This document shows positions 4,866 through 20,429 of a stretch of DNA of 64,000 nt, in pieces (position 1 is the stretch's first letter; each line of letters starts with the position of its first letter). The stretch covers positions 8,239,001 to 8,303,000 of the forward strand of contig NZ_CP107783.1 of assembly GCF_036345255.1 (NCBI RefSeq). Reading direction: 5' to 3'. The notes below the pieces were generated by a model. That model did no database searches. It was not told where the DNA came from and saw nothing but the letters and a program-made list of their open reading frames with translations. This DNA is from Streptomyces sp. NBC_00569. Lineage in GTDB: Bacteria > Actinomycetota > Actinomycetes > Streptomycetales > Streptomycetaceae. A program made the position numbers and the translations under genes.

Positions 4866-5109
4866 TCGGGTCCTCCTTGATCTGTCGGTTGCACCCCGCC
4901 GCACTGCTACTGGTCATCCCCGAGCCGGAACAGCCGGGCCACCGGAGCCGGGTTCGCCGGCCGCCGGACGCCGTGCGGGAGCGGTTCCCGGGTGCGGCGC
5001 CGGCGACTGAGGGTGGCGGTGTCCGCCGGGGAAGCACGGTCGGGCGGGACCTCGACTGCGGGCTTCGTGCCGGCGGACGCCGTGTTTGTTCCTTTCCGCG
5101 GTGACGGAG

Positions 5110-6033
5110 TCAGGAGGCAGCGACGGCCCGGTTGTCGGCGGTGAACGGACGTCCGGCGACGAGCTCGGACTCGCGCCCGTCCGGCCCCACCGGGACGTCG
5201 CCGAGCAGGGTGACTCGGTGCAGCCGCCGCTCCACGACGAGGTGTTCCAGGTCGCGCGGCGCGAGGTGTGCGGTGACCCGGTTGTCCCAGAAGGCGACGT
5301 GCCCGGCCTCCCAGCGGAACCGCACCGTGTACTCGGGTCGGGTGACCTCGGCGAAGAGCATGTCGAGGATGTGCTTGCTCTCGCTCGCGCTGACGTCGAC
5401 GATGTGGCTGGTGAAGCCCGGGTTGACGAAGAGCGCGCGTTCCCCGGTCTCCGGGTGCACCCGCACCACCGGGTGAACCGCCACCAGCAGGTTCTTGTTG
5501 ACGCTCCTGGCGAAGTCGTTGTCGCCCTTGACCCCGTAGCTGCCGCCGTAGCGGTGCTCGGCGCGCAGGGTGTCGACGAACGCGCGGACCGGAGCGGACA
5601 GCCCCTGGTAGGCCGCGACCAGGTTGGTCCACTGGGTGTCGCCACCGAAGTCGGGGACGACCTCGGCGCGCAGGATGGATCCCGCGGGCGGGTTCACCGC
5701 AGGGGTGACGTCGGTGTGCCAGCGGTACTCGTCCCGGAAGCCCTTGCCGAAGCGCTTCTCCAAGCGGTCCGGGTCGACGGTGAAGATCTCCGGGTGGTCC
5801 TCCGGCGGGGCGTCGTCGTGCGGGTGGGCGTAGGTGAGCTCGCCGAAGCGACGGGCGAAGGCGATCTGGGAGGTGTGGTCCAGCGTCTGGCCCCGGAAGA
5901 AGACGACCTTGTGGCGGTGGAGGGCCTGCCGTATCTCCTCGATGGTTCCGTCGGGCAGCGGCTGGGACAGGTCCGCGCCGTCGATGTCGGCGCCGATGTG
6001 GCCGGCGACCGGACGGATGGTGAGGCTGCTCAT
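5110..6033 (-). CDS. TauD/TfdA family Fe(II)/2-oxoglutarate dioxygenase
   Basis: This 307-residue cytoplasmic oxygenase hydroxylates its substrate while decarboxylating 2-oxoglutarate. In TauD the product breaks down to release sulfite from taurine. The iron ligands are visible as H106-x-D108 (WHTD) and H256 (TAHLAPRD). R273 in LHRVTLL is placed to bind the 2-oxoglutarate carboxylate. The ATG at 6033 has AAAGGAC upstream. The same frame stays open further upstream, into a remnant that resembles the end of a sulfonate-binding protein. The 244 nt after the gene contain an arginine-rich frame with a Shine-Dalgarno but no start codon that could be a permease remnant. The substrate is probably a sulfonate or a similar acid. 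Confidence 0.93.
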   Translation of the reverse strand: MSSLTIRPVAGHIGADIDGADLSQPLPDGTIEEIRQALHRHKVVFFRGQTLDHTSQIAFARRFGELTYAHPHDDAPPEDHPEIFTVDPDRLEKRFGKGFRDEYRWHTDVTPAVNPPAGSILRAEVVPDFGGDTQWTNLVAAYQGLSAPVRAFVDTLRAEHRYGGSYGVKGDNDFARSVNKNLLVAVHPVVRVHPETGERALFVNPGFTSHIVDVSASESKHILDMLFAEVTRPEYTVRFRWEAGHVAFWDNRVTAHLAPRDLEHLVVERRLHRVTLLGDVPVGPDGRESELVAGRPFTADNRAVAAS

Positions 6034-6069
6034 GGTAACGGTGTCCTTTCTGTTGCGGTCAGTGCTGGT

Positions 6070-6320
6070 TGATGCGGCCATGGCGTCGACGTCGTGGTCG
6101 ATGTCGGGGAACTCGCCGGAGACGCCGAACCTGCTCGGCAGTTGGCCGTTGGTCAGGAAGAGGTCGGCCCGGCGCTGTTGTGCCGACAGCGCGTCCCGGC
6201 TCGGCGTTGAACCGGATCTCTCCGGAGAGCAGCCAGATCCCCCTGGCGGTGTCCGGATTCTGCTCGTCGGCGCCGACACGCGAGGCGTTGATCCATGCGT
6301 CGGTCCGCTTGCGGCTCAAG
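6070..6320 (-). pseudogene. C-terminal remnant of an SsuA/TauA-like solute-binding protein
   Basis: Two minus-strand frames join across one apparent frameshift near 6205. The first reads DAWINASRVGADEQNPDTA. The second reads AQQRRADLFLTNGQLPSRFG and then SGEFPDIDHDV. Together they resemble the last helices of sulfonate/taurine binding proteins, which typically have a WI-x-A segment and then a QQ-x-AD-x-F...G-x-(L/I)P ending. Nothing of the N-terminus or lipobox remains. The position directly ahead of a TauD-type gene fits a lost transporter component. This is a motif-level resemblance only. Confidence 0.4.
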
Positions 6321-7075: not shown

Positions 7076-8479
7076 TCAGACGGCTCCCGCCTGGTCGATG
7101 CTCATGCCCTTGGTTTCGCGAGCGCGGAACATGACGGGTCCGAGGCAGACCAGGAAGATCGCGCTGATGATCCAGAACGGTGCACCGGTTCCCCATGTGG
7201 TCTGGACGTAGGGGATGGACCCGGCGATGAGGACACCGCCGATGAACCGGCCGATCGACTCCACCCATCCGGCTGCTGTTCCTCGTGTGTGGGTGGGAAA
7301 CTGCTCGGCCGTGAACAATCGGGAGAAGGGCACCATGCCGGTGCTGAAGAAGGCACTGAGGATGCCGAAGCAGACGCTCAGCGACGCGTTCGGTGACATC
7401 GCCAGCAGGCTGTAGCCGGCAACAGCACCAAGGCTGTAGATCAGGAAGGTCTTCTTGCGCCCGAGTCGGTCGGCCAGGCCTCCCACGAGCATTGCGCCGA
7501 CCACACCCCCGGTGATGAGTGCGGCGGTGGCGAGCAGCGCTTCGTGGTTGGACAGTCCCATCCCCGCATAGAGTGTCGGCGCGTAGACCACCACCACGTA
7601 CCCGCTCGCGGTGGCGCCGGCGCAGATCAGCAGGGACAGCGCGAAGCGACCCAGGAGTGGCTGGCGCAGCAAGGCCGTGGCCTGGTGACCCGGTTCGGAG
7701 TAGGCCGCGTACTCGGCCTGCACGACGCCGGCGGTTCCGGAGTTCACCATGCCCTCCCCGTCCTCGTACCCAGCCTCGCGTTCCATGCGCTCGACGAGAG
7801 CCTGAGCCTGGGATGCCCGGCCGTTGAGCAGCAGCCAGCGGGGGCTTTCCGGCAGGTGACGGTAGACGAATGGGATCGCCACGACGGGAAGGCCACCGAT
7901 GAGGAACAGAATGCGCCAGGACCACGCGAAGGGAGTGTTGCCGATCACGGCGAGCGCGGTGAGCTGGGGGATGATGTAGCTCAGCGCGAGCATGGCGGAG
8001 GCCGTGGCGATCACCGAGGCACGAGAGCGTTTCCCCAACAGCTCTGAGAGCAGGAGGTAGGGGATCGGGAAGACCGCGCCGAGTGCGAGGCCGCCCAGGG
8101 CGCGCATCGCCATGATCCAGCCGATGTCCGAGGAGACCGCGCACGCCGCAGCGAAGACCGAGAACAAGGTGATGCCGCAGAGAAGCACGACCTTGCGGCC
8201 GTAGCGGTCCGCGAGACGGCCCGCGAGCGCCGCACCCACGAGTATGCCGAGGGTCGAGGCGACGCCCAGCTGGGCTGTGCTCTGCGAGGTCAGGTGCCAG
8301 GGCGCTTTCACGATCAGCAGGATGGGGCCGATGATCCCGGCCTCGAACCCCTCCGCGACCCATACGACGATCAGCAGCACCGTTGTCAGCCGGGCGGTCC
8401 TCGTCATGGGGAGCCGGTCCAGGCGGCCGAGCAGGTCGGCGGTCACCACTGGGTCTGACACAACATTGGTTTGGCTCAA
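7076..8479 (-). CDS. MFS transporter, sugar/aromatic-acid porter type
   Basis: This 467-residue membrane carrier has about 12 predicted segments. Motif RLADRYGRK follows the second segment and GLADRLGRKK is its second-half copy. PESPRWLL and EQFPTHTRGTA are typical of sugar-porter and SV2/NiaP-like members. The start is TTG at 8479, chosen because AGGAGG lies 6 nt upstream; no ATG or GTG nearby is as well placed. It is the last gene of the carboxylase operon, 65 nt after the thiolase-fold gene. That suggests it imports the pathway substrate or exports a product. The substrate is unknown. Confidence 0.88.
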   Translation of the reverse strand: MSQTNVVSDPVVTADLLGRLDRLPMTRTARLTTVLLIVVWVAEGFEAGIIGPILLIVKAPWHLTSQSTAQLGVASTLGILVGAALAGRLADRYGRKVVLLCGITLFSVFAAACAVSSDIGWIMAMRALGGLALGAVFPIPYLLLSELLGKRSRASVIATASAMLALSYIIPQLTALAVIGNTPFAWSWRILFLIGGLPVVAIPFVYRHLPESPRWLLLNGRASQAQALVERMEREAGYEDGEGMVNSGTAGVVQAEYAAYSEPGHQATALLRQPLLGRFALSLLICAGATASGYVVVVYAPTLYAGMGLSNHEALLATAALITGGVVGAMLVGGLADRLGRKKTFLIYSLGAVAGYSLLAMSPNASLSVCFGILSAFFSTGMVPFSRLFTAEQFPTHTRGTAAGWVESIGRFIGGVLIAGSIPYVQTTWGTGAPFWIISAIFLVCLGPVMFRARETKGMSIDQAGAV

Positions 8480-8544
8480 GACGAACCTCCTGGAGTAAGC
8501 GGGGTCGCCGAAGGCGAAGACCCCACGATGGCCGTAACGAGACG

Positions 8545-9714
8545 TCAGTCGGCGTCGAGAACCATGACCATGTAGGCGGACATGACCATCCCGCCGGCTT
8601 GCACCAGGCAGGTGCGCGCGCCGGGGACCTGACGTGAGCCGCATTCACCGCGCAGCTGGCGGACCGCCTCGATCATCAACTGCATTCCGAACTGGCCGGA
8701 GTGGTTGAACGACAGCCCCCCGCCAGAGGTGTTCAGCGGGAACGTCCCGCCCGGGGCGATGCGCCCGCCGCCGACGAACGCGCCCGCACCTCCGGGTTCG
8801 CAGAAGCCGAGCGCCTCCAGCGCGACGAGTACGTTGATCGTGAACGCGTCGTAGATCTGCACCAGATCGATGTCCTGGCGGTCCATCTGCGCCATGGCCA
8901 GCGCCTCGTCGGCGACCGTGCGCAGCGCGCCGTCGTCGAGCCAGTCGGCGGTGCCGAGCGGGGTCAGGTGATGGCGGTAGGTGTCGCCGAAGCCGCGGAT
9001 CGACACGGGCCGCCGGGGCAGGTCGCGGGCACGGCTCGCACTGGTGAGGATCATGGCGCCGGCGCCGTCGTTGATCTGGCAGATGTCGAGCTTGCGCAGC
9101 GGGTCGGCGATCACGGGCGAGGCGAGGTAGTCCTCCATGGTGAGCGGTGTCCGGACCGCCGCATTCGGGTTGAGCTGCGCCCAGCGGCGGGCGGCCAGCG
9201 CCACCTCACCCAAGTGCTCCGGCGCCCCACCGTGGCGGTGCTGGTAGAGCTGGGCCAGCATCGCGTAGTAGCCGACCGGATTGAGCATTCCGTAGGGCAA
9301 CGTGAACTGGCTGATCGGCGACCGCGGGTCCTGGACGTGTCCACCGCGGCTCCGGCTCCTGTCCAGACGCTGGGTGCTGCCGTAGGTGACCAGGGCAACG
9401 TCGCACAGTCCTGCCTCGATGGCAGCCATCGCGTGTACCAGGTGGGTGATGTTCGACTGGCCGCCGACGACGGTGTTGTCGACGTAGCGCGGATGGATGC
9501 CGAGGTACTCGGCGACGAGGAGGGCGTTGGCGCGGTCGTCCCAGTGGGCGAAGACACCATCGATGTCGGTCAGGCTGAGCCCGGCCTCGAGCACGGCGTC
9601 ACGGGCCGCACGGCACTGCAGCGACAGCGCGGTGGCGCCGGCGGGGGCGTCGCCCAGTCCTGCTTCGCCGACCCCGACGATGGCATGGCGTCCGGAGAGC
9701 TTGGTCTTGTCCAC
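8545..9714 (-). CDS. Thiolase-fold protein lacking the nucleophile cysteine (SCP-x/Ltp2-like)
   Basis: This 389-residue protein has the two-half thiolase fold of the SCP-x-related group that pairs with DUF35 proteins. The loop that normally carries the nucleophilic cysteine reads VGGQSNITHLVHA, and the C-terminal CxGG region reads CLVQAGGMV, so no cysteine sits at either usual position. The histidine loop is kept in SFNHSGQFG, and a tyrosine lies in QIYDAF. Ltp2-type steroid side-chain aldolases use a thiolase fold without these cysteines, so retro-aldol or other C-C cleavage is as likely as thiolysis. The start is GTG at 9714, 9 nt after the CoA-ligase stop. A DUF35 partner is two genes upstream. 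Confidence 0.85.
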   Translation of the reverse strand: MDKTKLSGRHAIVGVGEAGLGDAPAGATALSLQCRAARDAVLEAGLSLTDIDGVFAHWDDRANALLVAEYLGIHPRYVDNTVVGGQSNITHLVHAMAAIEAGLCDVALVTYGSTQRLDRSRSRGGHVQDPRSPISQFTLPYGMLNPVGYYAMLAQLYQHRHGGAPEHLGEVALAARRWAQLNPNAAVRTPLTMEDYLASPVIADPLRKLDICQINDGAGAMILTSASRARDLPRRPVSIRGFGDTYRHHLTPLGTADWLDDGALRTVADEALAMAQMDRQDIDLVQIYDAFTINVLVALEALGFCEPGGAGAFVGGGRIAPGGTFPLNTSGGGLSFNHSGQFGMQLMIEAVRQLRGECGSRQVPGARTCLVQAGGMVMSAYMVMVLDAD

Positions 9715-9723
9715 TGCCGTCCC

Positions 9724-11280
9724 TCAGACCGTCGCCGTGTCCGCGCCCGCGCCCGCGCCCGCGAGCCTGGCGCGGACGTCCTTCTTGAGGACCTTGCCGA
9801 CCGCGCTGCGCGGCAGCGTCTGCCAGAACTCCACCTGCTTGGGGGTCTTGAGACCGCCGAAGCGGGAGCGGCACATCTGGGTGATGTCCTCGGCCGTCGC
9901 GTGTCCTCCGGGCTTCAGCTCGACCACGGCGGTCAGTCGCTCACCCCAGTCGGCGTCGGGCACCCCCACCACGGCACAGTCCTGCACCGCGGGGTGCGAC
10001 CAGATCAGCTGCTCGATCTCACTGGGGTAGATGTTGAACCCGCCGGAGATCACCATGTCCTTCTTACGGTCGACGACGTAGAGGTATCCGCTCTCGTCGA
10101 AGACCCCGATGTCACCGGTGTGGTGCCAGCCGAAGCGGTGGGCCTCGGCGTTCGCCTCGGGGTTGTTGAGGTATCCGGGAGAGACCAGCTCACCGCGGGC
10201 GACGATCTCGCCGCGCTCACCCGGCGCCACGATGTTGCCGTCGTCATCCATGAGCACCACCTCGCAGGCGCCGGTCGGCCGACCGGCGGACTGGAGGTGC
10301 TTGACGGCCGCCGGATCGTCACTGAGGTAGTGGTCCTTACGAGCGAGGCAGGTGATCACTCCGGGCGCTTCGGCCTGGCCGTAGAACTGGACGAAGACCT
10401 GGCCCCAGAGCGCCAGTCCCTCCTTGAGTTTGTCCACCGACATGGGGGCGGCACCGTAGATCACGTACTCCAGGGAGGAGCAGTCGCGCCGGCGGGTGTC
10501 CGGGTGCGCCAGGATCCGGTAGATCATCGTCGGCGGCAGGAAGATGTGCGTCACCCGCTCACGCTCGATCAGCTCCAGGATCACGGCCGGATCCGTCGAC
10601 GGTGCCATCACGTTGCGCGTGCCGAAGGCCGACAGGCCCATCGCCGTGGCGCCGGCCGCGTGGGTCAGCGGTGCCACCACCAGGTGCACCGGGTCCTTCT
10701 CGGGCGGGCAGAACTGGTTCGCGATCCGGTAGGCGGACAGCAGGCTGCGGTGGGTCTGCAGGATCGCCTTGGGGCGGCCGGTGGTACCTCCGGAGGACTT
10801 GATCAGTGCGACGTCGTCGAGGCCTCGACGCGTGTCGCAGGTCTGCCCGGCGTGGTCCCGCTGCCAGGCCTCGATGCTCGGCCCGGTCGTGCCCTGCTCG
10901 TTCAGCGCGATACAGGTCTTGAGGGTGGGCACCTCGGACTCGATGCGATCCAGGTACGGAAGGTACTGCTCGTGGTAGATCAGCGCCGACAGCCCGGTGA
11001 AACGCATGAACCAGATCAGGTCGTCAACCGCGTCGCGGGCGTTGAGGGGGACGTAGGTGGCGCCCGCGCGCAGCACCCCGAGCATCGCCACGAAGCCGCT
11101 GGGGTGGTTCGGGGAGAGGATACCGATGGTGCCGCCGCCCAGCCCTTCCTGGGTGAGTCCGTGAGCGATCGCGTGCGAGGCGACCACGACGTCGTCATAG
11201 CTGAGCTGCTGGGTGGCGGACTGCAGGAAGGTGCGATCCGGGTACCGGGCGGCCCCGGCGTCGAAGTAGTCGGTGATCAT
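9724..11280 (-). CDS. AMP-forming acyl-CoA synthetase
   Basis: This 518-residue adenylate-forming ligase would make the CoA ester used by the rest of the operon. The P-loop is SSGGTTGRPKAIL, then FYGQAE, the TGD motif in WHTGDIG, and the hinge KKDMVISGGFNIYPSEIE. The catalytic lysine lies in RSAVGKVLKKD near the C-terminus. The ATG at 11280 overlaps the stop of the DUF35 gene as ATGA, so the two are coupled. The operon also encodes ADP-forming SucC/SucD-like subunits. Two different CoA activations, or activation and energy recovery, are therefore possible. The substrate is unknown. Confidence 0.93.
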   Translation of the reverse strand: MITDYFDAGAARYPDRTFLQSATQQLSYDDVVVASHAIAHGLTQEGLGGGTIGILSPNHPSGFVAMLGVLRAGATYVPLNARDAVDDLIWFMRFTGLSALIYHEQYLPYLDRIESEVPTLKTCIALNEQGTTGPSIEAWQRDHAGQTCDTRRGLDDVALIKSSGGTTGRPKAILQTHRSLLSAYRIANQFCPPEKDPVHLVVAPLTHAAGATAMGLSAFGTRNVMAPSTDPAVILELIERERVTHIFLPPTMIYRILAHPDTRRRDCSSLEYVIYGAAPMSVDKLKEGLALWGQVFVQFYGQAEAPGVITCLARKDHYLSDDPAAVKHLQSAGRPTGACEVVLMDDDGNIVAPGERGEIVARGELVSPGYLNNPEANAEAHRFGWHHTGDIGVFDESGYLYVVDRKKDMVISGGFNIYPSEIEQLIWSHPAVQDCAVVGVPDADWGERLTAVVELKPGGHATAEDITQMCRSRFGGLKTPKQVEFWQTLPRSAVGKVLKKDVRARLAGAGAGADTATV

Positions 11281-11702
11281 TGGTCTTCCAGGTGTGCCAG
11301 GGTGAATTGGGGAAGGACGCAGGTACTGCTGATCCGTTCGAAGCGGACCTCGACGCGGGCGCCGATGCGGACCTGGTCGACGGGGCAGTCGACGATGTCG
11401 GTCAGCAGGCGCACGCCCTCGTCGAGGTCGATGACGGCCACGGCGTAGGGGACCTTGTCCCTCATCGAGGGATGAGCCGGGATCCGGCAGACCGTGAAGG
11501 TGTAGATACGGCCCAGCCCTGCCGACTCGATCCACTCCAGGCGGTCCGAGAGGCAAGCCGTGCAGAAGCCGCGCGGGTAGAACTGATGACGCGCGCAGCT
11601 CCGGCAGCGCTGGATCACCAGGCGGCCCTCGGCGGCCGCCTCCCAGTAGGGCCTGGTCTCGGCCGTGGGGGCCGGTTCCGGGCGGGCGGTGGTATCAGTC
11701 AT
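11277..11702 (-). CDS. DUF35 zinc-ribbon/OB-fold protein (thiolase partner)
   Basis: This 141-residue protein has an N-terminal rubredoxin-like zinc ribbon (CRSCARHQFYPRGFCTAC, about residues 33-50) followed by an OB fold. Such proteins bind thiolase-fold enzymes of the SCP-x, HMG-CoA-synthase and Ltp2 groups and help bring in the acyl-CoA. The ATG at 11702 lies inside the end of the carboxyltransferase-like gene (8-bp overlap). The downstream ligase overlaps by ATGA. The likely partner is the thiolase-fold protein at 8545-9714. Confidence 0.92.
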   Translation of the reverse strand: MTDTTARPEPAPTAETRPYWEAAAEGRLVIQRCRSCARHQFYPRGFCTACLSDRLEWIESAGLGRIYTFTVCRIPAHPSMRDKVPYAVAVIDLDEGVRLLTDIVDCPVDQVRIGARVEVRFERISSTCVLPQFTLAHLEDQ

Positions 11703-13209
11703 GGTCGCTCGACCCCCCGTTGGCTCGGAGCTCGACGCCGGGCGCCACCAGCCGGACCCTGCGCTTGCTCGGCATCTGTGCGAGACCGGCCACCAGTTCC
11801 ACGATCGACTGCTGCACGCTGAAGGTGTCCTCGACCGGGACGAGTCCGTCGATCTTCTGGTCGCCGTACATGTATCGCAGCAGCAGCTGGTCGTCCGACT
11901 GGTTCCGGGAGCGGCTGCGCAGCGCCGGCAGGACCGGGTCCAGCGGCGGCGGGGTCTCGGCGACATCCCGCGAGCCGTTGCCCAGCACACGGTCCTTGAT
12001 GTCGGCGTCGATGGGCAGCGGCAGCTCGCCGTAGTATCCGCAGACGTATTTCTTCACCTCGTCGGGCACCACGGAGTAGCGCTCACCGTGCAGGACGTTC
12101 ATCACGGCCTGGGCGGCGACGATGGCGGGGAAGGGTGTGGCCATCACCGGCGAGCCCAACTCCTCGCGCACCCGGCCGATCTCCTCGATCACCGCGGGCA
12201 TTCTGTCGGCGATGCCCGCCTGCTTCAGCTGTGCCTCGAGGTTGGTCATGGCACCGCCGGCGTACTGCGTCTGGTAGAGCGAAGGGTCGAACTCGGCGGG
12301 GACGCCCACGGGGTATCCCAGGTCGTCGGCGAGCTTGCCCAGGTAGGCGCCGACGTCGTCGAGCAGCCGGTCGTCGACGTTGACGTCGAACCCGAGGGCG
12401 CGCAGGTCGCGGGCGATCATCTGGGCGGACGGCAGCGAATTGCCGTTGGCCAGGGGGTCCACGGCCGTCATGATCTGGTCTGCGCCGTACACCGCGGCCT
12501 CGAGGGCGACCTGCGGTCCCGTCCCCGTCAGGCAGTGAGTGATCAACTCCAGCCGCTTGTCACCGATCGCCGCTCGCAGCGCCGGCACCAGCGTCCGCGT
12601 ACGTTCGACGGTCAGGCTGCCGCCGGCGTCCCCCAGGCAGATCGTGTCCACGTCGAAGCGGTCGATGACCTCGCGGGCCTGACGGACGTAGAAGTCGTCG
12701 TCGTAACCTGGCGCAAGGTTGAACACGAGTCCCACCAGCACCTTGGCCCCGAGCCGCTTGGCGACCCGGATGCCGGGGGCCACGTTGTCCCAGCAGTGCA
12801 GGGAGTCGAGAACTCCGAATTCACGGATGCCGTTGGCGGCCATCCGCTCGACGAAGAGTTCGTTGACGTCGTCCGCCTGTGGGAAGAAGCTCCGCATCAG
12901 GTTGCTGCGGATGGCACCGCGCAGTGGTGTCGCGGTGATCCGCTCCCGGAGCAGGCGCACCCGCTCGAAGGGATCCTGGTCGAGGAAGAGGACACTGACG
13001 TCGAAGCCCACCAGCGCGAGGGCGTCGATGCTGTGGAATCCGGCCTCGTCGAGCTGCTTCGCGATGGGCAGCATGTGCTCGGTGCGCATCCGGGTCGCCC
13101 ACAGGCATTGGTGGGCGTCCCGGAAGGTGCTGTCGACCAGGTCGACCGTCCGACGCTTGCCGGTCCGGGCCGTCTCGGCTGCGACAAGAGAACGCAGGGT
13201 ACTGAGCAT
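11695..13209 (-). CDS. 5S-type carboxyltransferase paralogue A with altered metal site
   Basis: This 504-residue protein is an HMGL-like TIM barrel followed by the PYC/OADA conserved domain, as in transcarboxylase 5S and pyruvate carboxylase. DSTFRDAHQ (D31, Q34) and LRG (R97) are kept. At the position of the carbamylated lysine (usual KDMAG) it has G193 in CLGDAGG. The usual HTH metal pair reads ITH (I223, H225). GGAMTN replaces the common GGMxSN near residue 338. In the known enzymes these residues hold Zn or Mn and drive carboxyl transfer to an alpha-keto acid, so the classical reaction is doubtful. It starts 6 nt after paralogue B. An active role in the complex with the biotin proteins is inferred from the operon. 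Confidence 0.87.
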   Translation of the reverse strand: MLSTLRSLVAAETARTGKRRTVDLVDSTFRDAHQCLWATRMRTEHMLPIAKQLDEAGFHSIDALALVGFDVSVLFLDQDPFERVRLLRERITATPLRGAIRSNLMRSFFPQADDVNELFVERMAANGIREFGVLDSLHCWDNVAPGIRVAKRLGAKVLVGLVFNLAPGYDDDFYVRQAREVIDRFDVDTICLGDAGGSLTVERTRTLVPALRAAIGDKRLELITHCLTGTGPQVALEAAVYGADQIMTAVDPLANGNSLPSAQMIARDLRALGFDVNVDDRLLDDVGAYLGKLADDLGYPVGVPAEFDPSLYQTQYAGGAMTNLEAQLKQAGIADRMPAVIEEIGRVREELGSPVMATPFPAIVAAQAVMNVLHGERYSVVPDEVKKYVCGYYGELPLPIDADIKDRVLGNGSRDVAETPPPLDPVLPALRSRSRNQSDDQLLLRYMYGDQKIDGLVPVEDTFSVQQSIVELVAGLAQMPSKRRVRLVAPGVELRANGGSSDHD

Positions 13210-13215
13210 TGCTTT

Positions 13216-14640
13216 TCACGCTTCCTGTTGCAGATGGACGCGGACGCCGGGCCCGTGCAGGCTCAGCACGGCGAAGCGGCCGGCACGCGTGAGCAGGCCA
13301 CGAACCAGGGCTTCGTAGGGAGTCAACGTCGCGTAGCTGAACGAGCTCGCCGCCGCCCTCGGCGGTAGCGCGGAGATCTCGACTCCGGCGATCCAGGCGA
13401 GCAGTGCCTCCGGGCCGTCGACGTCGGCCGCCTGGGGCTCCGCGGCCGGGAGGACTCCGACCCGCATGCGCAGATCCGCGCGCAGCTCTCCGTCCACGCT
13501 CCCGTACGCCCCTTGCAGCAAGCGGCGCAGCACCGGCCGCAGGCTTTCGTACCGCGCCTCGCTGTCGAAGTGGCTGATCGCCTGCTCGGCGATCGCGCGG
13601 GCGAACGGGGCCACCATCGGAGGTGATCCCATCTCGCGGCGGACGGCGGCGCACTCGGCGGCGAACTCGTGCAGATCCGCCCAGCGCCCACGGCCGCGCA
13701 GCGCCGCCAGGAAGTCGACCGCGACCTCTCCGGGCAACTGGTGGGCGTAGGCCGCCAGATCGAAGGGCCACGACGCTGCCTGCGGGAAACCCTCCTGATC
13801 TGCGATGGCCGCCAGGATTGCGTCGGCCGCCAGCAGGCTGTCGTGATCCGGCAGGTCCTGCGTGGCGCCCTGTTGGCGCAGTGCGCGCAGCAGCGACGGC
13901 AGCGACGGGAGCGAGGCGCCGTTGGCCAGACACGGCAGGGCCGTGTCGATGCCGCTGACGCCGAGGCCGACGGCCTCCAGCACCACGGCGGGCCCCAGGG
14001 CGGTGTGGCAGCGGGTGTGGAGATCGAGCGGGGTGGTGCCGAGCGCTTCGACCAGGGCAGGGATCAGGCTGTGCAGCCGGTCCGGCGTCAGCACGCCGCT
14101 CTCGTCGCGGAGCATCACCCGTGCCGCACCGCCGTCGGCGAGCGAGGCGGCCAGCTGGGCGTACGTCTCGTCGGGGCGATCGTCGTCGGCCTGGTAGGGC
14201 AGGGCGGCGATCGCCACCAGGCCCGCGGCGGACGCGGACTTGACCGCCGCATGGAGGCGGTTCGTGTCGAGCAGCGGATCGAGCAGGACGACCTGCTGCA
14301 AGCCCGCGGCCGCGAGCGCGGCCAGCCAGCGGTCGATCATCTCGGGGCCGAGGACATCGGCTCCGGGGCGTCCGTGCCCGGTGAGCAGGTTGACGGTGGC
14401 TCGGAGCGGCACGAAACCGTAGTGCCGCCGCGCGAGTTCCAGGCGTTGCAGGGGGTTCTCGCCCCGGGCGAGGCAGGCGTCCAGGACGGCCGGGCTGAGG
14501 ATCTCGATCGCCGCGAGCCCCGAGGCCGACAGTCCGCCCGCGGGTGCGAGCATCATCGAAGTGTCCAATGCGCCGCCCCACACGGCCATCTGGCCGTCGG
14601 TCAGGCTGCTGTCGGTGAATGCAAGTTGGTGCGTGCTCAT
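13216..14640 (-). CDS. 5S-type carboxyltransferase paralogue B, more divergent
   Basis: This 474-residue relative of the neighbouring gene has the same HMGL-like barrel and C-terminal carboxylase domain. Its DSSLTDGQM keeps the aspartate (D15) but has M18 where the substrate-binding glutamine normally lies. The carbamyl-lysine position is R178 (MLRDESG). The HTH pair reads HTR (H208, R210). The substitutions differ from those in paralogue A, as if each lost a different half of the site. The ATG at 14640 overlaps the biotin carboxylase stop as ATGA. It may be a partner or scaffold of paralogue A. No single known enzyme has this pair to my knowledge. Confidence 0.82.
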   Translation of the reverse strand: MSTHQLAFTDSSLTDGQMAVWGGALDTSMMLAPAGGLSASGLAAIEILSPAVLDACLARGENPLQRLELARRHYGFVPLRATVNLLTGHGRPGADVLGPEMIDRWLAALAAAGLQQVVLLDPLLDTNRLHAAVKSASAAGLVAIAALPYQADDDRPDETYAQLAASLADGGAARVMLRDESGVLTPDRLHSLIPALVEALGTTPLDLHTRCHTALGPAVVLEAVGLGVSGIDTALPCLANGASLPSLPSLLRALRQQGATQDLPDHDSLLAADAILAAIADQEGFPQAASWPFDLAAYAHQLPGEVAVDFLAALRGRGRWADLHEFAAECAAVRREMGSPPMVAPFARAIAEQAISHFDSEARYESLRPVLRRLLQGAYGSVDGELRADLRMRVGVLPAAEPQAADVDGPEALLAWIAGVEISALPPRAAASSFSYATLTPYEALVRGLLTRAGRFAVLSLHGPGVRVHLQQEA

Positions 14641-16067
14641 GCCGGCGCTCCCGCCTCCGTGAGGGACTGACGAGTGTGGGGTCCCTGGCTGCGTGAGGGG
14701 AGGAACACGTCCTCGACCCAACGCGTCGTCACCGCCCCGTCGGAGAAGTCGGGATGGGCCAGCACCGCTCGGTGAAACGCGGCGGTGGTCGTCGGGCCGT
14801 CGACCCTCAGCGCGGCCAGAAGCGTGCGCATCTTCTCGATCGCCTCGGCACGCGTGGGCGCGTGCACGATGGCCTTGGCGAGCAGCGAGTCGTAGTAGGG
14901 CGAGACGGTGTATCCCGGATAGCAGTGGGTGTCGACCCGGATGCCTTCCCCTCGCGGTGCGGACCAGTCGCTGACAAGGCCCGGGCTGGGGGCGAAGCCG
15001 CGGTCCGCGTCCTCGGCGTTGATCCGGCACTCGATGGAGTGCCCCTGCAGGACGATGTCGTCCTGAGCGAACGAAAGCGGCAGGCCCGAGGCGACGCGAA
15101 TCTGCTCGGCCACCAGATCACGTCCGCTGATCATCTCGGTCACCGGGTGCTCGACCTGGATGCGCGTGTTCATCTCGAGGAAGTAGAACTCCCCGTCCCG
15201 GTCGTCGACGACGAACTCGACCGTGCCCGCGCCGACGTAGTCGACGTTCTCGGCCAGTCGGACCGCGGCCTGCCCCATGGCCCGGCGGGCCTGTGCCCCC
15301 AGCGCCGGCGAGGGCGCTTCCTCGATCAGCTTCTGGTGGCGTCGCTGCGTGGAGCACTCGCGCTCGCCCAGGTGCACCACGTTCCCGAACTGGTCGCCCA
15401 TCACCTGGATCTCGATGTGACGCGCCTGTTCGATGAACTTCTCGATGTAGAGGGTCGGGTCGCCGAACGCGGACTGGGCCTCCGTGGACGCGGCCCGGAA
15501 CGCCTCGGGGAACTCCTCGGCCGACCGGACGACCCGCATGCCGCGGCCGCCGCCGCCGGCGCTCGCCTTCACCAGGACCGGAAAACCGATCTCCACGGCG
15601 ATCGGCAGGCCTTCCGCCGGGTCGGCGACGGCGCCGGAGCCGGGCACACACGGCACCTTCGCCTTCGCGGCGAGGCCCACCGCAGTGATCTTGTCGCCCA
15701 TGCTCTCGATGGCCTCGGGGGTCGGACCGATGAAGATCAGGCCGGCCTCGCCACAGGCGCGGGCGAACGCCGCGCGCTCGGACAGGAAGCCGTAGCCAGG
15801 GTGGACGGCGTCGCACCGGCTGCGCTTCGCTGCGTCGATGAGCACGTCGACGCGCAGGTAACTCTGTATCGGCTGGGGCGGCCCGATGACGACGGACTCG
15901 TCGGCCATGCGCGCGGCCAGGCTGTCGACGTCCGCTTCCGATACTCCTACGACCGTCTCGATGCCCAGTGATCGGCAGGCTCGGATGATGCGGACGGCTA
16001 TCTCGCCGCGGTTGGCGACGAACAGCCTGCGGATGTCGTGGCGGACGACAGGGGCGGCATGACTCAT
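14637..16067 (-). CDS. Biotin carboxylase subunit
   Basis: This 476-residue ATP-grasp enzyme carboxylates biotin on the carrier protein using bicarbonate and ATP. It has the full three-domain layout: VANRGEIAVRIIRAC at the N-terminus, GGGGRGM at residues 171-177, ERECSTQRRHQKLIEE, and FLEMNTRIQVEHPVTE. All the catalytic signatures look intact, so this half of the reaction should work. It lacks a fused carrier domain, which is supplied by the preceding gene. The ATG at 16067 overlaps that gene's stop as ATGA. Confidence 0.96.
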   Translation of the reverse strand: MSHAAPVVRHDIRRLFVANRGEIAVRIIRACRSLGIETVVGVSEADVDSLAARMADESVVIGPPQPIQSYLRVDVLIDAAKRSRCDAVHPGYGFLSERAAFARACGEAGLIFIGPTPEAIESMGDKITAVGLAAKAKVPCVPGSGAVADPAEGLPIAVEIGFPVLVKASAGGGGRGMRVVRSAEEFPEAFRAASTEAQSAFGDPTLYIEKFIEQARHIEIQVMGDQFGNVVHLGERECSTQRRHQKLIEEAPSPALGAQARRAMGQAAVRLAENVDYVGAGTVEFVVDDRDGEFYFLEMNTRIQVEHPVTEMISGRDLVAEQIRVASGLPLSFAQDDIVLQGHSIECRINAEDADRGFAPSPGLVSDWSAPRGEGIRVDTHCYPGYTVSPYYDSLLAKAIVHAPTRAEAIEKMRTLLAALRVDGPTTTAAFHRAVLAHPDFSDGAVTTRWVEDVFLPSRSQGPHTRQSLTEAGAPA

Positions 16068-16585
16068 TTTGCGGCCTCCGTCTCGTCCGGGGCGATGATC
16101 ATCAGGATCTGGTCACTGCTCACCGCTTGACCGTGCTCGACGAGGATGCTGTGGACCCGGCCGGTCACCGGTGCGGCGACCGAGTTGAACATCTTCATGA
16201 CCTCGACCAGGCACATGGTGGTGCCGGCGGTGATCGGCTCGCCCTCCTCCACGAAGGGCGGCTGGTCGGGTGCGGGCGTGCGGTAGAACGTCCCGGGCAT
16301 GGGCGCCCGAATCGCCGTCATGCCGACAGGGATCTCGGCAGCCTGCTCGTCGGCACTCGCCGCAGGCTCCGGCGACGCCGTGCTGGGGCCGGTCGAGCTG
16401 GTGCGGTCGGCCAAGGGACCAGGCGCATGCACCGGTGGCGCGGTGGTCAGCGCCTCCAACGGGGCCGCACCGGGCTTACGGGCCTGCAGGACGAACTCTC
16501 CGATGCGAATCTCGAGCGACTCGAGGTGCTCTGCGCTGTCGAGAAGCTGGAGGATGCGCCGGACATCTGCGTGCTGCAGTGTCAT
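16064..16585 (-). CDS. Biotin carboxyl carrier protein
   Basis: This 173-residue AccB-like protein has an N-terminal segment, an Ala/Pro-rich linker (residues 40-85) and a C-terminal biotinyl domain. The biotin attachment site is K131 in EVMKMFNS. The fold resembles the stand-alone carriers of fatty-acid acetyl-CoA carboxylase, with the bacterial AccB thumb-like insertion (GTFYRTPAPDQPPFVEEG). The ATG at 16585 is preceded by a Shine-Dalgarno plus start codon that has been duplicated in tandem (16581-16614). It is the carrier for the biotin carboxylase downstream. Which carboxyltransferase receives the carboxyl group is the open question of this operon. Confidence 0.94.
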   Translation of the reverse strand: MTLQHADVRRILQLLDSAEHLESLEIRIGEFVLQARKPGAAPLEALTTAPPVHAPGPLADRTSSTGPSTASPEPAASADEQAAEIPVGMTAIRAPMPGTFYRTPAPDQPPFVEEGEPITAGTTMCLVEVMKMFNSVAAPVTGRVHSILVEHGQAVSSDQILMIIAPDETEAAK

Positions 16586-16614
16586 GTTCCACTCCTTGTC
16601 ATGTTCCACTCCTT
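16581..16614 (-). repeat. 17-bp tandem duplication of ribosome binding site and start codon
   Basis: The plus-strand unit GTCATGTTCCACTCCTT occurs twice head-to-tail. In the mRNA each copy is AAGGAGTGGAACATGA. Because 17 is not a multiple of three, the upstream ATG (16602) opens a six-codon frame (MTRSGT) that ends in a TGA overlapping the real ATG at 16585. The same upstream ATG also overlaps the TGA that ends the broken carboxyltransferase gene. It looks like a recent duplication that doubled the carrier protein's initiation region. Confidence 0.9.
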
Positions 16615-17217
16615 GCGTTGCGCTTCTGCGAGGGCGCGTTCGGGCAGGCCGGCATGGGGCACGCGGTGGTGCCGAGCTGCTCCGGCAGGAGTCGGCGGGC
16701 GAGCCGCACCCATCCGCACAGCAGCGGGCGGGTTCGCGGGGGTCGATGATGTCCTGGATTCCGAGGTGCTCTACGGTCCGGAACGGGTTCTCTATGGGAA
16801 GGAACCGGGCACACAGTTCGCGACGCTGCGCGTCGGCGTCGTCACTTTCCGAAAGCTGTCGCGGGTACACGGCTTCGGTTCCGCCCTCCACCGGGATCCG
16901 TCCCCAGCGTGCGGTCGGGCAGGCGTACTGCTACTTAATGCTTGCACCCATCGGGGCGTAGGTGGTGTCGGGCGGCCCGTATACGCGGCGAACGAACACT
17001 GACGGCCAGGGGACGATGGCCTGCTCGATCGGCATCCCGGTCCTGATGCCGTGGCGCTCGCGTGCTGCCGGGCGATCTTGTCGGGGCCGCGCACCGCCGC
17101 GGCAAAGGTGCGACGCCTGACCATCTCCGATTCGTATCGCGGTCGGCCCGTGCTGTCCGCGGTGCCGGCGCCCACGGCCAGGGCCGGCCGAGCACTTCGG
17201 GGGTCGGGCTCGGTCAT
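16599..17217 (-). pseudogene. Broken acyl-CoA carboxyltransferase (AccD/PccB/MccB-like) gene
   Basis: The N-terminal coding (ATG 17217, overlapping the SucD-like stop as ATGA) includes GPDKIARQHAS, typical of the start of PccB/MccB proteins. After a large internal deletion the reading continues as VFVRRVYGPP and APMGASIK, then meets a TAG. The same frame runs on through ACPTARWG, EGGTEAVYPRQL and LGIQDIIDPRE. A one-base loss then shifts the frame into TRPLLCGWVRLARRLLP, the usual C-terminal motif. About 200 codons are present where roughly 500 are normal, and the carboxyl-transfer core is gone. The gene was clearly a member of this operon before decay. Confidence 0.85.
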
Positions 17218-18155
17218 GGGGAGGTCCTCCTTACGGCGAGCGACGCCGGTGCACGGAGGGCCTCGGCCGGGAGGGCTTCCTGCAGGTACGCGCGCACTTC
17301 GTGCGTCGAGCGAGCGACACGGACCCCCGCGTCCCTGAGCGCTGCAATCTTTTCCTGGACGGTCGCCCCGCCGGCTCCGTGCAGCGCGTGCCCGAACGGC
17401 ACGGAATCCGGCAAGGAGTCGCCTGCGCGTCCCACCACCATCGCGACCACGGGCAGGTCGATTCGCCCCTCGGCCACGGCGGCGGCCAGGTCGAGCTCCT
17501 GGCGGCTGGACGGCTCACCGAAGACCAGCACGGCCCGGGTCAGCGGGTCCTGGGCCACCAGCTCGACCCCTTCGGTCAGGGGTGTTCCGACCATCGGCAC
17601 GCCGCCGATCGACACCTGCACGCTGGTGCCCCAGCCCCAGGTCCGCACGGACATCCCCAGCTCGGAAGCCATGCCGCCGCTGCGGGAGACGATCCCGACC
17701 GGACCGGGGGTGAATCGCTGCCACGGCTCATCGCCGCCCGGGCAGCCGATCCGGCCCACGCCCGGCACCACGATCCCCTGCGAGTTCGGCCCGATCACCC
17801 GGCAGTTGCCCCGGCGGGCGACCTCCAGGACCCGCAGCCAGTGATGCTGCGGAATCTTCTCCGAGCTGACCACGACCAGTTCGATTCCGGCCTGCGCCGC
17901 CTCCACAACCGCATCCGCCGCGGCCTGTGGCGGCGCGTAGCTCATCGCCACCCTTGCGCCGGTCACGGCGACGGCCTGCGCGACTGTGTCAAAAACGGGC
18001 ACCCCGTGCACCTCGGAGCCCCCCTTGCCGGGGGTGACGCCGGCCGCCACACGAACGCCCGAATCGAGCATCCAGCGGGTCTCCAGCCGTCCTTGCGTGC
18101 CGGTGATGCCCTGTACCAGCAGCCCCGGACCGGTTTCCAGAAGTCCTCGGATCAT
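17214..18155 (-). CDS. SucD-like CoA ligase alpha subunit
   Basis: This 313-residue protein has the CoA-binding Rossmann domain and ligase domain of succinyl-CoA synthetase alpha subunits (ADP/GDP-forming). VQGITGTQG opens the CoA-binding fold. RSGGMASELG matches the SGTLTYE region. The phosphorylatable histidine is kept in PFGHALHGAGG. The ATG at 18155 overlaps the beta-subunit stop. An AAGGAGGA near the end serves the next, broken, gene. Sequence differences from housekeeping SucD suggest another acid than succinate. Confidence 0.88.
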   Translation of the reverse strand: MIRGLLETGPGLLVQGITGTQGRLETRWMLDSGVRVAAGVTPGKGGSEVHGVPVFDTVAQAVAVTGARVAMSYAPPQAAADAVVEAAQAGIELVVVSSEKIPQHHWLRVLEVARRGNCRVIGPNSQGIVVPGVGRIGCPGGDEPWQRFTPGPVGIVSRSGGMASELGMSVRTWGWGTSVQVSIGGVPMVGTPLTEGVELVAQDPLTRAVLVFGEPSSRQELDLAAAVAEGRIDLPVVAMVVGRAGDSLPDSVPFGHALHGAGGATVQEKIAALRDAGVRVARSTHEVRAYLQEALPAEALRAPASLAVRRTSP

Positions 18156-19345
18156 CGGGCGAAGCCCTCCCATGCCTGGGGCGCTCGGCCCATCGCGGAG
18201 ATCAGCAGGTCGCATGCGTCTTCGAGCGACGCCGCGCGGTCGAGTACGAGTGCTCCCGGCAGCCCTGCCTTCAGCATCTCCCGAGCCTCGGCCTCGAACG
18301 GCCCGGCCAGCCGGACCACCGTCGGCACATGCCCAGCATCGAATCCGGCCTCCTCGGCGGCTTCGATGAACTCCTGGGCCAGCTCGCGGGCATCCACCAG
18401 GTTCAGCACCGCAGCGCCGAACAGCGCCCCGCGGATCCCGGGGACGGACAGGGCGGAACGGAACAGCGCCTGCACCTTGGCGCTCCCGGCACCCGGCGAG
18501 GCGTCGAGGTAGCAGGCCGGGAGGACGCCGTTGTCGTACAGGTAGTCCAACCCGACAAGACCTGCGCCTCTCCCACTGATCAGGTAGGCCACGTCCCCGT
18601 CGAGCTCGAAGAACGCCACGCCGGGACGGTGGGGCTCGGCGGCGTCCGCCTCACGCACGGCGATCTCGCGCGGCGAGGGAGCCTTGTGCGGGGCGATCCC
18701 GGGCTCGACCAGCACGTCCGGCCGGAATCCCCTGGCCGCTGCCCGGCCGTGCGGGTCGAATTCGACCGCCACGCCGACGGCGACCAGACGCTGCTCGTCC
18801 CACCGGAAGGGGGTGACCTCGACAAGAACTGCTTCGGCGGCGCAGAAGGCGGTCCAGAGGATCTGCAGCGCGTGAGCGAGTGCACCGCGCAGTTGCCGGT
18901 CCTTGACGTCAGCCTGGTCGAGCAGGCTGACGACCTCGTGGTCGTGCAGGCCCTCTGACAGGTGGACCCTCACCGCAGCCGCCTGATGCGTGTCGAATCC
19001 GACTCCGCCGTTAACGCTCGCCCGCACGACGGCGCCGTACGAAATCTCGTCGAGCGCGATGGAGAGGCAGTATTCGCCCCCCTCGACGTACTCCTCCACG
19101 ACGGCGGGCGTACCGCGTCGAAGAGTCGCGGCGACAGCGGCCGACAGCTCGTCCGAGGACCGGCAGATGTGCACGAGACCGGCCTTGCCGCCGCCGACGA
19201 TGTCGGGTTTCACCACCCACGGTGGCCCGAACGCCGGCTCGTGCGGCGCCAGGATCCGCCCATCCGTCACGACGACCAGCTCGGGCGTCGTGACGCCGAG
19301 CCGACGAAGCCACGGCATTGCAGCGCTCTCAGTGGCCTGTGGCAT
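18152..19345 (-). CDS. SucC-like CoA ligase beta subunit (ATP-grasp)
   Basis: This 397-residue partner of the alpha subunit is the first gene of the operon. The N-terminal ATP-grasp region is visible (WVVKPDIVGGGKAGLVHI, VEEYVEGGEYCLSIALD). A C-terminal ligase domain has LISGRGAGLVGLDYLYDNG and AVLNLVDARE. Together the two make or use an acyl-CoA with ADP/ATP. The ATG at 19345 has AAGGGAG upstream. It is transcribed divergently from the LysR gene across a 142-bp region, part of which is duplicated at 6320-6474. Confidence 0.88.
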   Translation of the reverse strand: MPQATESAAMPWLRRLGVTTPELVVVTDGRILAPHEPAFGPPWVVKPDIVGGGKAGLVHICRSSDELSAAVAATLRRGTPAVVEEYVEGGEYCLSIALDEISYGAVVRASVNGGVGFDTHQAAAVRVHLSEGLHDHEVVSLLDQADVKDRQLRGALAHALQILWTAFCAAEAVLVEVTPFRWDEQRLVAVGVAVEFDPHGRAAARGFRPDVLVEPGIAPHKAPSPREIAVREADAAEPHRPGVAFFELDGDVAYLISGRGAGLVGLDYLYDNGVLPACYLDASPGAGSAKVQALFRSALSVPGIRGALFGAAVLNLVDARELAQEFIEAAEEAGFDAGHVPTVVRLAGPFEAEAREMLKAGLPGALVLDRAASLEDACDLLISAMGRAPQAWEGFAR

Positions 19346-19487: not shown

Positions 19488-20429
19488 ATGAGATCGGAAC
19501 AGATGCGCTATCTGGAGGCGGCGATCCGCCTCGGTTCCCTGCGCAAGGCGGCCACGGAAGTGGGTATCGGGCAACCGACGCTCAGCCAGCAGATCCGACG
19601 CCTCGAGGAGGACCTCAACGTCAACCTGTTGATCCGCCGCGCCAACGGGGTCCTCCCCAGCGCCGAGGCCCGGATTCTGCTGCCACACATACGGCAGGTC
19701 ATCCAGGCCGACCGAGCCCTTCGGGAGGAGGCCGAGCTGATCAACGGGCTGCGCAGCGGCTGCGTCCGCCTGGGCGCGGTCACCACAGCGGGCCAGATCC
19801 TGCTGCCCGAAGTGGTCCCGCTCTACCGGAACGCCTTCCCCAGCGTGCGCTTTTCCGTGTGGGAGGCCAGCTCCGCGGCCGTGCGCGACAAGGTGACGAA
19901 CGGCGAGCTCGACCTCGGACTGGTCGCGGGCCCCAGAGATCCCGACACCGACAGCGGCCTCGTCTCCACCGATCTGATCTCCGACGAAATCGTGCTGTGC
20001 GTGCCCCGGGGCCACCCCTTGGCGGACAAGCCGACCGTGAGTGTCCCGGACCTGGAAGGCCAGTCGTGGGTGCTCCCCGCGCGCGGCTACGCCGCGCGAC
20101 ACCTGGCGGATTCCCTGTTCGCGCCAAGCGACCAGAACGTCGTCTACGAGACGACCAACCCACATTCGACCCTGCTCATGGTCGCCGCCAGGGTGGGCAT
20201 CGCGTTGCTGTCCCGATCCGCGCTCCTCAGCCACCGGGCTGATGAGATCGTGACGCCGGTAACCGACTGGGACCCGCTGCGGTTGACCGTGTCCATGATC
20301 GCGCGCGCGGACATGCAGCCGGGGCCCGCAGTGCGAAAGCTCATTGAGGTTCTGCGCAAGGTGAGTGCGGAGCGGTCGCAGGCTGCCCTCCGTCACGCGA
20401 CCGCACCATCGGCCCGATCGCCGCAGTAG
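19488..20429 (+). CDS. LysR-family transcriptional regulator
   Basis: This 313-residue regulator has an N-terminal winged helix (RYLEAAIRLGSLRKAATEVG, then QPTLSQQIRRLEEDL) followed by a periplasmic-binding-protein-like effector domain (residues about 90-295). It is divergent from the carboxylase operon, the usual arrangement for a LysR activator that responds to a pathway intermediate. The ATG at 19488 was preferred over the internal ATG at 19503 because the winged helix begins right after it. A truncated homologue lies at 6434-6474. Confidence 0.93.
   Translation: MRSEQMRYLEAAIRLGSLRKAATEVGIGQPTLSQQIRRLEEDLNVNLLIRRANGVLPSAEARILLPHIRQVIQADRALREEAELINGLRSGCVRLGAVTTAGQILLPEVVPLYRNAFPSVRFSVWEASSAAVRDKVTNGELDLGLVAGPRDPDTDSGLVSTDLISDEIVLCVPRGHPLADKPTVSVPDLEGQSWVLPARGYAARHLADSLFAPSDQNVVYETTNPHSTLLMVAARVGIALLSRSALLSHRADEIVTPVTDWDPLRLTVSMIARADMQPGPAVRKLIEVLRKVSAERSQAALRHATAPSARSPQ

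Follow-up and report, generated by a model that had tools for sequence, protein, structure and literature searches.

A conserved Streptomyces operon joining biotin-dependent carboxylation, CoA activation and a candidate C-C cleaving pair, with an unusual pair of carboxyltransferase barrels

Introduction

The Hpe system of Rhodococcus rhodochrous GD02 (HpeHICBADEF) is a proved pathway for acetovanillone, comprising biotin-dependent carboxylation, CoA activation and C-C cleavage (PMC9618137). The kinase HpeHI, the carboxylase HpeCBA and the phosphatase HpeD are followed by a proposed CoA synthetase and hydrolase. HpeCBA carboxylates phospho-acetophenones, and is active only on the phosphorylated substrate. 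Here we analyze an operon from Streptomyces sp. NBC_00569 that carries biotin-dependent carboxylase genes together with two kinds of CoA-activating enzyme and a thiolase-fold protein. It lies in a window of 64,000 nucleotides, the whole stretch of DNA analyzed, corresponding to positions 8,239,001-8,303,000 of the 10.32 Mb single-contig genome (NZ_CP107783.1).

Two other groups of enzymes provide the reference points for its active sites. Pyruvate-type carboxyltransferases hold their metal ion via a carboxylated lysine. In the pyruvate carboxylase of L. lactis the metal is bound by carboxylysine 703 together with His732, His734, Arg533 and Asp534; Arg606 is positioned at the substrate, and Thr867 lies next to pyruvate and biotin (PMC9581989). 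Among the steroid aldolases of the Ltp2/Sal type, TcLtp2 uses Tyr294 of a YDHF motif and Tyr344, while CtSal uses Tyr302 and Cys304 of YDCY; the motif of SCP2 thiolases is HDCF (PMC12329534).

The operon and its conservation

The analysis confirms a genuine, conserved gene cluster whose logic belongs to a known kind and whose pair of carboxyltransferases is unusual. It comprises the following features, with positions numbered within the window.

19488..20429, plus strand: divergent LysR regulator; start set from the Rhodococcus relative (L013); orthologue of 73-77% identity in the same place in L012, L013 and L081
18152..19345, minus strand: SucC-like ATP-grasp subunit, divergent; PF08442 at 35 bits, PRK00696 at 81.9 bits against a cut-off of 370
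17214..18155, minus strand: SucD-like CoA-binding subunit; PF02629, PF13607; GHA histidine motif present; TIGR01019 at 219 bits against a cut-off of 353
16647..17217, minus strand: remnant of an AccD-type (acyl-CoA carboxylase beta) gene, by tblastn with intact relatives
16064..16585, minus strand: biotin carboxyl carrier protein (BCCP); PF00364; MKM biotin site
14637..16067, minus strand: biotin carboxylase (BC); PRK08591 at 647 bits, above the cut-off of 597
13216..14640, minus strand: CTB, a degenerate carboxyltransferase (CT) barrel of the pyruvate carboxylase/oxaloacetate decarboxylase (PC/OAD) type; PF00682; 5ks8 at 1.8e-28
11695..13209, minus strand: CTA, a PC/OAD-type CT barrel without the carboxylated lysine; PF00682, PF02436; 2nx9 at 8.6e-70
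11277..11702, minus strand: DUF35, OB-fold zinc-ribbon partner; PF01796, PF12172; C..C-C..C motif
9724..11280, minus strand: LIG, AMP-forming acyl-CoA ligase; PF00501, PF13193; nucleotide-binding and C-terminal Lys motifs
8545..9714, minus strand: THIO, thiolase fold without nucleophilic Cys, candidate aldolase; 4u4e at 3.9e-91, 9myr at 8.9e-50, 6ok1 at 3.7e-46; YDAF, His338
7076..8407, minus strand: major facilitator superfamily (MFS) transporter; best NCBIfam model the aromatic acid/H+ symporter TIGR00895 at 184 bits, below the cut-off of 418; orthologues in L012, L013 and L081

From the coordinates there are ATGA overlaps at five junctions (SucC/SucD, SucD/AccD, BCCP/BC, BC/CTB and DUF35/ligase). 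CTA and DUF35 overlap by 8 nt, and gaps of 6 nt and 9 nt separate CTB from CTA and the ligase from THIO; the gap between THIO and the MFS gene is 137 nt. A sequence-only reading of this DNA had described nine intact genes and one broken gene, tightly coupled, under a divergent LysR gene. The divergent LysR gene and most of the tight junctions are borne out. The AccD/carrier junction, by contrast, is loose, with the homology of the remnant stopping near 16647 and the carrier beginning at 16585. The AccD gene is indeed broken, by more than a frameshift since a large internal part has gone, but the intact genes on the operon strand number ten when the MFS gene is counted.

A CTB profile was run over a collection with one genome per species, using two peptide patterns so that the counts are a lower bound. 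It gave at least 23 loci: one each in Nocardia, Rhodococcus and the Rhodobacteraceae, 12 in Pseudomonas and 8 in Variovorax. By tblastn the order BCCP-BC-CTB-CTA is found in all 23 (CTB being in two pieces in L034) as well as in L081 and L083, and DUF35-LIG-THIO adjoins it in 17 of the 23. The entire gene order, with an intact AccD, recurs in Nocardia (L012), Rhodococcus (L013) and another Streptomyces (L081, genome G1086). Such recurrence exceeds what chance would give. The cluster is rare within the genus, with CTB in 2 of 392 congeneric genomes including its own; it is present in 1 of 396 genomes of the phylum, namely its own, and in 2 of 250 genomes of the family of a Variovorax genome, that genome included. 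Scans at the level of phylum, class and family added no new CTB genome for the phylum and one for the family, plus one further genome with CTs like those of the KC family described below.

Families were counted by automatic gene calling on the 23 loci and L042, about 21 kb each, in which some genes are merged or missed. BC and CTA are found in all 24 loci, BCCP in 23, AccD1, CTB and a second ligase (LIG2) in 21 each, LIG in 19, THIO and AccD2 in 18, DUF35 in 17 and a YeiH-like gene in 16. For six loci with THIO outside the stretch (L023, L027, L028, L030, L034 and L042), every genome holds an orthologue of 54-71% identity elsewhere. In L082 THIO stands with LIG, DUF35, AccD2 and YeiH. L083, from the same genome as L042, has a compact form, THIO-LIG-DUF35-CTA-CTB-BC-BCCP with a divergent BCCP2-GntR-LIG2-AccD1-AccD2 and YeiH. 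The modules of Pseudomonas, Variovorax and Rhodobacteraceae lie near transporters and GntR regulators.

A literature search with combined terms, covering titles and the openings of abstracts and with most subscription papers outside its reach, found no publication on this gene set or assigning a substrate to an orthologous operon. The earlier reading had named such an assignment as one finding that would overturn it.

The carboxyltransferase barrels

CTA lacks the equivalents of both K703 (replaced by Gly or Ala) and H732 (Ile, Asn, Leu or Thr) in 24 of 24 orthologues, and retains those of R533, D534, R606, H734 and T867 in all ten rows checked. In CTB the lysine is replaced by arginine in every one of the 22 sequences aligned (a selection from 83 hits), and the second histidine, Arg606 and Thr867 are missing in 15 of 15 rows; the equivalents of Asp534 and the first histidine are kept. 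The classical metal site of PC, OAD and transcarboxylase 5S (carboxylated lysine, two histidines and aspartate) is incomplete in both barrels, and the losses are complementary because CTA is without the first histidine and CTB without the second. They exclude an ordinary pyruvate carboxylase or oxaloacetate decarboxylase. It is likely that CTA is the catalytic barrel and CTB a degenerate partner, and we infer that the two form a heteromeric carboxyltransferase.

In a tree of 45 rows, in which one long row (P0077) was flagged, CTA and CTB each form a single clade with support of 100/100, and CTB stands on a long stem. CTA is sister to a family of stand-alone CT-BCCP-BC enzymes, here called KC, with support of 91/91, below the 95/80 level that the tool stars. 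One alignment with single barrels was excluded, several CTA-like rows having fallen on the CTB half. The KC carboxyltransferases keep all the pyruvate carboxylase residues checked (10 of 10 rows). One KC enzyme (L048) adjoins a 3-oxoacid CoA-transferase and a thiolase, a context that at first appeared acetoacetate-like. The thiolase scores best with 3-oxoadipyl-CoA thiolase models, however, and on this ground and the retention of the PC residues an acetone-carboxylase function for KC was set aside.

Changes at these positions are found elsewhere in the CT family. Hpe-like CTs were labelled by their neighboring genes (L035, L036, L038 and L047) or by similarity alone (L045 and L051). L036, L038 and L051 keep the metal residues and have lost Arg606; L035 and L047 keep Arg606 and have Glu at the lysine position; L045 keeps Arg606, its lysine position being occupied by Tyr and that of the second histidine by Asn. 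The mixture indicates that the metal lysine was lost in more than one branch. P0077, a PycB-like protein of 604 amino acids with CT and biotin domains, has His at the metal lysine and no second histidine, extending the loss of the site to a further member. Two KC-like frames of genome G754 (L070 and L071) have kept the metal residues and lost Arg606. We considered Arg606 as a sign of a keto-acid substrate and dropped it: the Hpe-like CTs split on this residue, which therefore cannot tell a ketone from a keto acid.

Hpe-like operons were also seen on plasmids. That of P. putida YC-AE1 (L036) has an annotated Hpe-like set, without a kinase pair among the genes listed. On plasmids of R. oxybenzonivorans and R. 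pyridinivorans an Hpe-like operon combines BCCP-BC-CT, DUF35, a thiolase-family protein, an AMP ligase and phosphoenolpyruvate (PEP)-utilizing enzymes, and the thiolases of these two Rhodococcus plasmids retain the cysteine nucleophile and have HDAF as their motif. In these Rhodococcus plasmid loci, L035 (7692-17728) and L047 (3703-13724), whose CTs have Glu at the metal lysine, DUF35, a thiolase and a tyrosine-phosphatase-like gene stand where Hpe has HpeD and HpeF. A plasmid of Rhizobium leguminosarum (L038, 7240-17590) has an apparently complete hpe-like set by annotation: a kinase pair, BCCP, BC, CT, HAD, acetoacetate-CoA ligase and amidohydrolase.

CoA activation and the AccD-type gene

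Both SucC and SucD fall below the curated cut-offs for succinyl-CoA synthetase. A SucC-like gene (E <= 1e-15) is present in 2 of 12 cluster-bearing genomes, both actinobacterial, and in 0 of 10 proteobacterial genomes; the proteobacterial loci have LIG2 and AccD-type genes in place of SucCD. LIG2 is absent from the called genes only in L012, L013 and L042. SucCD in the actinobacteria and LIG2 in the proteobacteria thus look like alternative CoA-activating steps beside AccD1.

The intact AccD relatives in Nocardia and Rhodococcus are 540 amino acids in length. By tblastn the window gene has kept residues 1-53, has lost about 54-402, and has a tail of about 403-540 containing a stop and a change of frame. 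AccD is intact in L012, L013 and L081. Loss of AccD implies that its step in this strain is either lost or performed by another AccD, and the pathway may be impaired or rewired. The genome contains eight further AccD-like frames of 33-37% identity, which may or may not include one able to take its place.

L081 contains the whole operon; its AccD is 94% identical to that of Rhodococcus, and ten other proteins compared are 82-93% identical to their L013 counterparts. In all ten proteins compared, the L081 operon is nearer to those of Nocardia and Rhodococcus than to that of the window. This closeness suggests horizontal transfer. Window-specific changes exceed L081-specific ones in 10 of 10 proteins, by least in THIO (16 against 10 of 387 columns, where SucC has 52 against 6 of 397). 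The excess is partly a matter of descent, because L081 lies nearer to Nocardia and Rhodococcus than the window does.

The candidate cleaving pair

THIO has GGQS or GGGS and no cysteine at the position of the nucleophile in 19 of 19 rows, as placed by alignment with Cys-bearing thiolases, and is not an ordinary thiolase. YDAF is present in all 18 rows that cover the motif (L032 ends before it), and His338 is invariant in ten aligned orthologues. By alignment the second catalytic residue of Ltp2/Sal is absent, with Ala290 in place of His or Cys and no equivalent of Tyr344. The DUF35 gene lies two genes away.

Relatives of THIO were sought by tblastn among plasmids, with 566 matching records of which 25 were listed and four viewed closely. 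The four are 44-57% identical (44-56% when aligned with THIO), and all lack the cysteine. Their neighbors are genes for acyl-CoA dehydrogenase, for a hydratase (MaoC or enoyl) and for a CoA ligase or transferase. This setting, as expected for a beta-hydroxyacyl-CoA aldolase, favors a retro-aldolase. The actinobacterial locus L070 (3672-13834) groups a CoA-transferase, acetaldehyde dehydrogenase, 4-hydroxy-2-oxovalerate aldolase, BCCP-BC-CT, a Cys-less THIO relative (38%) and DUF35. By eye it has a BioY-like gene also, and about 14 kb separates it from a second CT.

A domain scan revealed no hydratase or acyl-CoA dehydrogenase among the window operon proteins. Consequently either the substrate would already be hydroxylated or THIO would cut a beta-keto ester; we weakly prefer a substrate already carrying a hydroxyl group. 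Against this, no more than two loci, both of Variovorax (L023 and L028), have a MaoC gene 3' of CTA, where it stands between polyhydroxyalkanoate (PHA) depolymerase and PHA synthase, and an alcohol-dehydrogenase-like gene was seen in three loci of Pseudomonas (L017, L019 and L026).

A proposed pathway

We propose, at about an even chance, that this is a catabolic operon for a carbonyl-bearing compound, acting by carboxylation, CoA activation and C-C cleavage. Gene content, conservation, residue losses and family relations are shown by the sequences; the order of steps, the class of substrate and the type of reaction at THIO are what we infer. The substrate would probably be a small acid, imported by the MFS carrier. 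SucCD, or in the proteobacteria LIG2, would form its CoA thioester, which the AccD-type carboxyltransferase would carboxylate. The BC of the cluster would also charge the carrier for a second carboxyltransferase formed by CTA and CTB, putting CO2 onto a ketone or keto acid. LIG would then convert the new acid into its CoA ester, and THIO with DUF35 would break a C-C bond with no cysteine as nucleophile, a retro-aldol reaction via Tyr288 and His338 being the likeliest mechanism.

Conservation of the BCCP-BC-CTB-CTA module across two phyla supports this proposal. The sequence-only reading had arrived at the same succession of carboxylation, CoA activation and cleavage, and this is still the best reading: CTA is sister to the stand-alone CT-BCCP-BC enzymes, and this kind of chemistry is proved for HpeCBA (PMC9618137). 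That reading had matched the operon to no pathway, whereas we take it as a variation on a known kind. Its argument from the missing cysteine to an aldol-type cleavage has gained support from the tyrosine of YDAF, the DUF35 partner, and the dehydrogenase and hydratase genes around the relatives.

Several points weigh on the other side. It is doubtful that CTA could carry out the canonical, metal-assisted transfer of a carboxyl group, because the carboxylated lysine and one histidine are missing. The comparison with Hpe was made through the Hpe-like CTs, of which L036, L038 and L051 do keep that lysine. AlphaFold2 applied to CTB and CTA as two barrels in one chain returned a mean pLDDT of 81 and a pTM of 0.53, at which no CTA-CTB interface can be claimed. 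The CoA-transferase and thiolase of the sister operon L048 could serve a 3-oxoadipate route, so that its context says little about ketones. No hydratase or acyl-CoA dehydrogenase family, the source of a beta-hydroxyacyl-CoA for an aldolase, recurs beyond two of the 24 loci. The window operon has lost AccD, and its genes show divergence from those of the relatives.

A more specific form of the proposal is tentative, and we regard it as possible at well below even chance. CTA and CTB would be a metal-free obligate heterodimer, each lacking the complementary half of the metal site and sharing one BC with the AccD-type CT, and carboxyl transfer would dispense with the Zn/Mn-carboxylysine center. 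The route would be redox neutral and independent of O2, carboxylating twice and activating with CoA twice, and its aldolase, a thiolase fold lacking the cysteine, would be of a new type with YDAF and a histidine.

The pair of barrels is conserved in Actinomycetota, Pseudomonas and Variovorax, with both lacking the carboxylated lysine that holds the metal. A working enzyme of CTA and CTB would extend what is known of how CO2 is fixed onto carbonyl compounds. Through the module, genes annotated as pyruvate carboxylase subunit B, oxaloacetate decarboxylase alpha or hypothetical protein gain a function that can be tested, as do the plasmid-borne DUF35/thiolase-fold relatives of THIO.

Alternative readings

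The operon might be a methyl-ketone carboxylase following Hpe logic without phosphorylation, in which CTA/CTB converts a ketone to a beta-keto acid, LIG makes the beta-ketoacyl-CoA, and THIO/DUF35 performs a retro-Claisen cleavage instead of HpeF. The Hpe-like operon of R. oxybenzonivorans and R. pyridinivorans has a DUF35/thiolase pair and lists no HpeF-like amidohydrolase, L070 has a 3-oxoacid-type CoA-transferase beside CT and THIO, and every hydratase or dehydrogenase family is confined to three or fewer of the 24 loci. Yet those Rhodococcus thiolases have the nucleophilic cysteine and HDAF, neither of which is present in the window THIO, and the substrate arginine, kept in L035, L045 and L047 and lost in L036, L038 and L051, is non-decisive; we consider this route rather unlikely. 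Less probable still is a carboxylase-transcarboxylase, in which AccD (12S-like) and CTA/CTB (5S-like) share the carrier and use it to exchange carboxyl groups between a keto compound and a malonyl-type CoA, while BC replenishes the carrier. Such subunits do occur together with a carrier, LIG2-AccD1-AccD2 are adjacent in L083 and AccD is nearest to mmdA/PccB, but BC, which a transcarboxylase lacks, is present in 24 of 24 loci, and the metal site of the barrel is missing. An anabolic role, such as making a carboxylated CoA unit for natural-product synthesis, would suit a streptomycete host, and a CoA ligase with carboxylases could make extender units. It is very improbable, given that the operon genes include no polyketide or peptide synthetase and that in Pseudomonas, Variovorax and Rhodobacteraceae the same module has transporters and GntR regulators nearby.

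Compatible with any of these is the view that in this strain the operon is undergoing decay and is no longer expressed. The AccD pseudogene and the excess of window-specific changes over those of L081 in ten of ten genes point that way. Against this, all ten other frames are open, the expected active-site motifs are present in BCCP, SucD, LIG, BC and DUF35, and near-identical CTB (97%) and CTA (98%) are found in other Streptomyces. One of the other AccD-like frames might moreover replace AccD, and the excess of changes reflects descent in part. Decay is a possibility that we hold to be doubtful.

Neighboring genes

Beyond the MFS gene on its 3' side, two frames on the same strand (window 3189-6279) resemble by eye an AMP ligase and a TauD/TfdA-type dioxygenase. 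A TauD-like gene also lies near the split cluster in L032. A gene for a YeiH-like membrane protein (PF03601) stands beside the cluster in 16 of the 24 loci (L014-L022, L024, L026, L028, L029 and L031-L033), and in L082 and L083 too. The one tested, from L015, scores below the TIGR00698 cut-off. YeiH has been linked to sulfite resistance (PMC12880088), and the YeiH-like protein might handle sulfite, bicarbonate or another anion. The idea of a sulfonate substrate, which came from this gene, is noted only, no search for desulfonation genes having been made.

Comparison with known systems

THIO shares with the Ltp2/Sal steroid aldolases the SCP2-thiolase fold, a DUF35 gene in the same operon, the tyrosine of YDxF and the lack of a nucleophilic cysteine (PMC12329534). 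It differs in having YDAF rather than YDHF or YDCY and, by alignment, a histidine where CtSal has Gln352; furthermore, there is no MaoC domain among the window operon proteins. As regards the propionyl/acyl-CoA carboxylase beta subunits, the AccD relatives in L013 and L015 match PccB/MmdA structures. At about 302-325 of 999 bits, however, they are far under the mmdA cut-off, and the same cluster encodes a 5S-like CT alongside them. CTA and CTB match the barrel and PYC_OADA models of two-subunit pyruvate carboxylase, oxaloacetate decarboxylase alpha and transcarboxylase 5S, CTB falling below the PYC_OADA cut-off; unlike these enzymes, both are without the carboxylated lysine, and each is without a different one of the metal histidines.

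The nearest parallel is with Hpe and Acv, the homologous genes of Sphingobium SYK-6. There BC, a carrier and a PC-type CT act on a carbonyl side chain, followed by a CoA synthetase and C-C cleavage, and the genes form a tight operon with four-base overlaps (PMC9618137, PMC13101465). BCCP, BC and a PC-type CT are likewise encoded together in the window, but with two barrels instead of one, and with AccD, SucCD and DUF35/THIO added. The ten operon proteins include no PEP-utilizing kinase like HpeHI (kinase queries from L038 were without a match in L081-L084; L012-L034 were not scanned), and no HAD phosphatase or HpeF hydrolase. With kinase, phosphatase and hydrolase missing, we reject a true Hpe pathway. 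By analogy the operon, although no member of that system, would work like its core of carboxylation, activation and cleavage.

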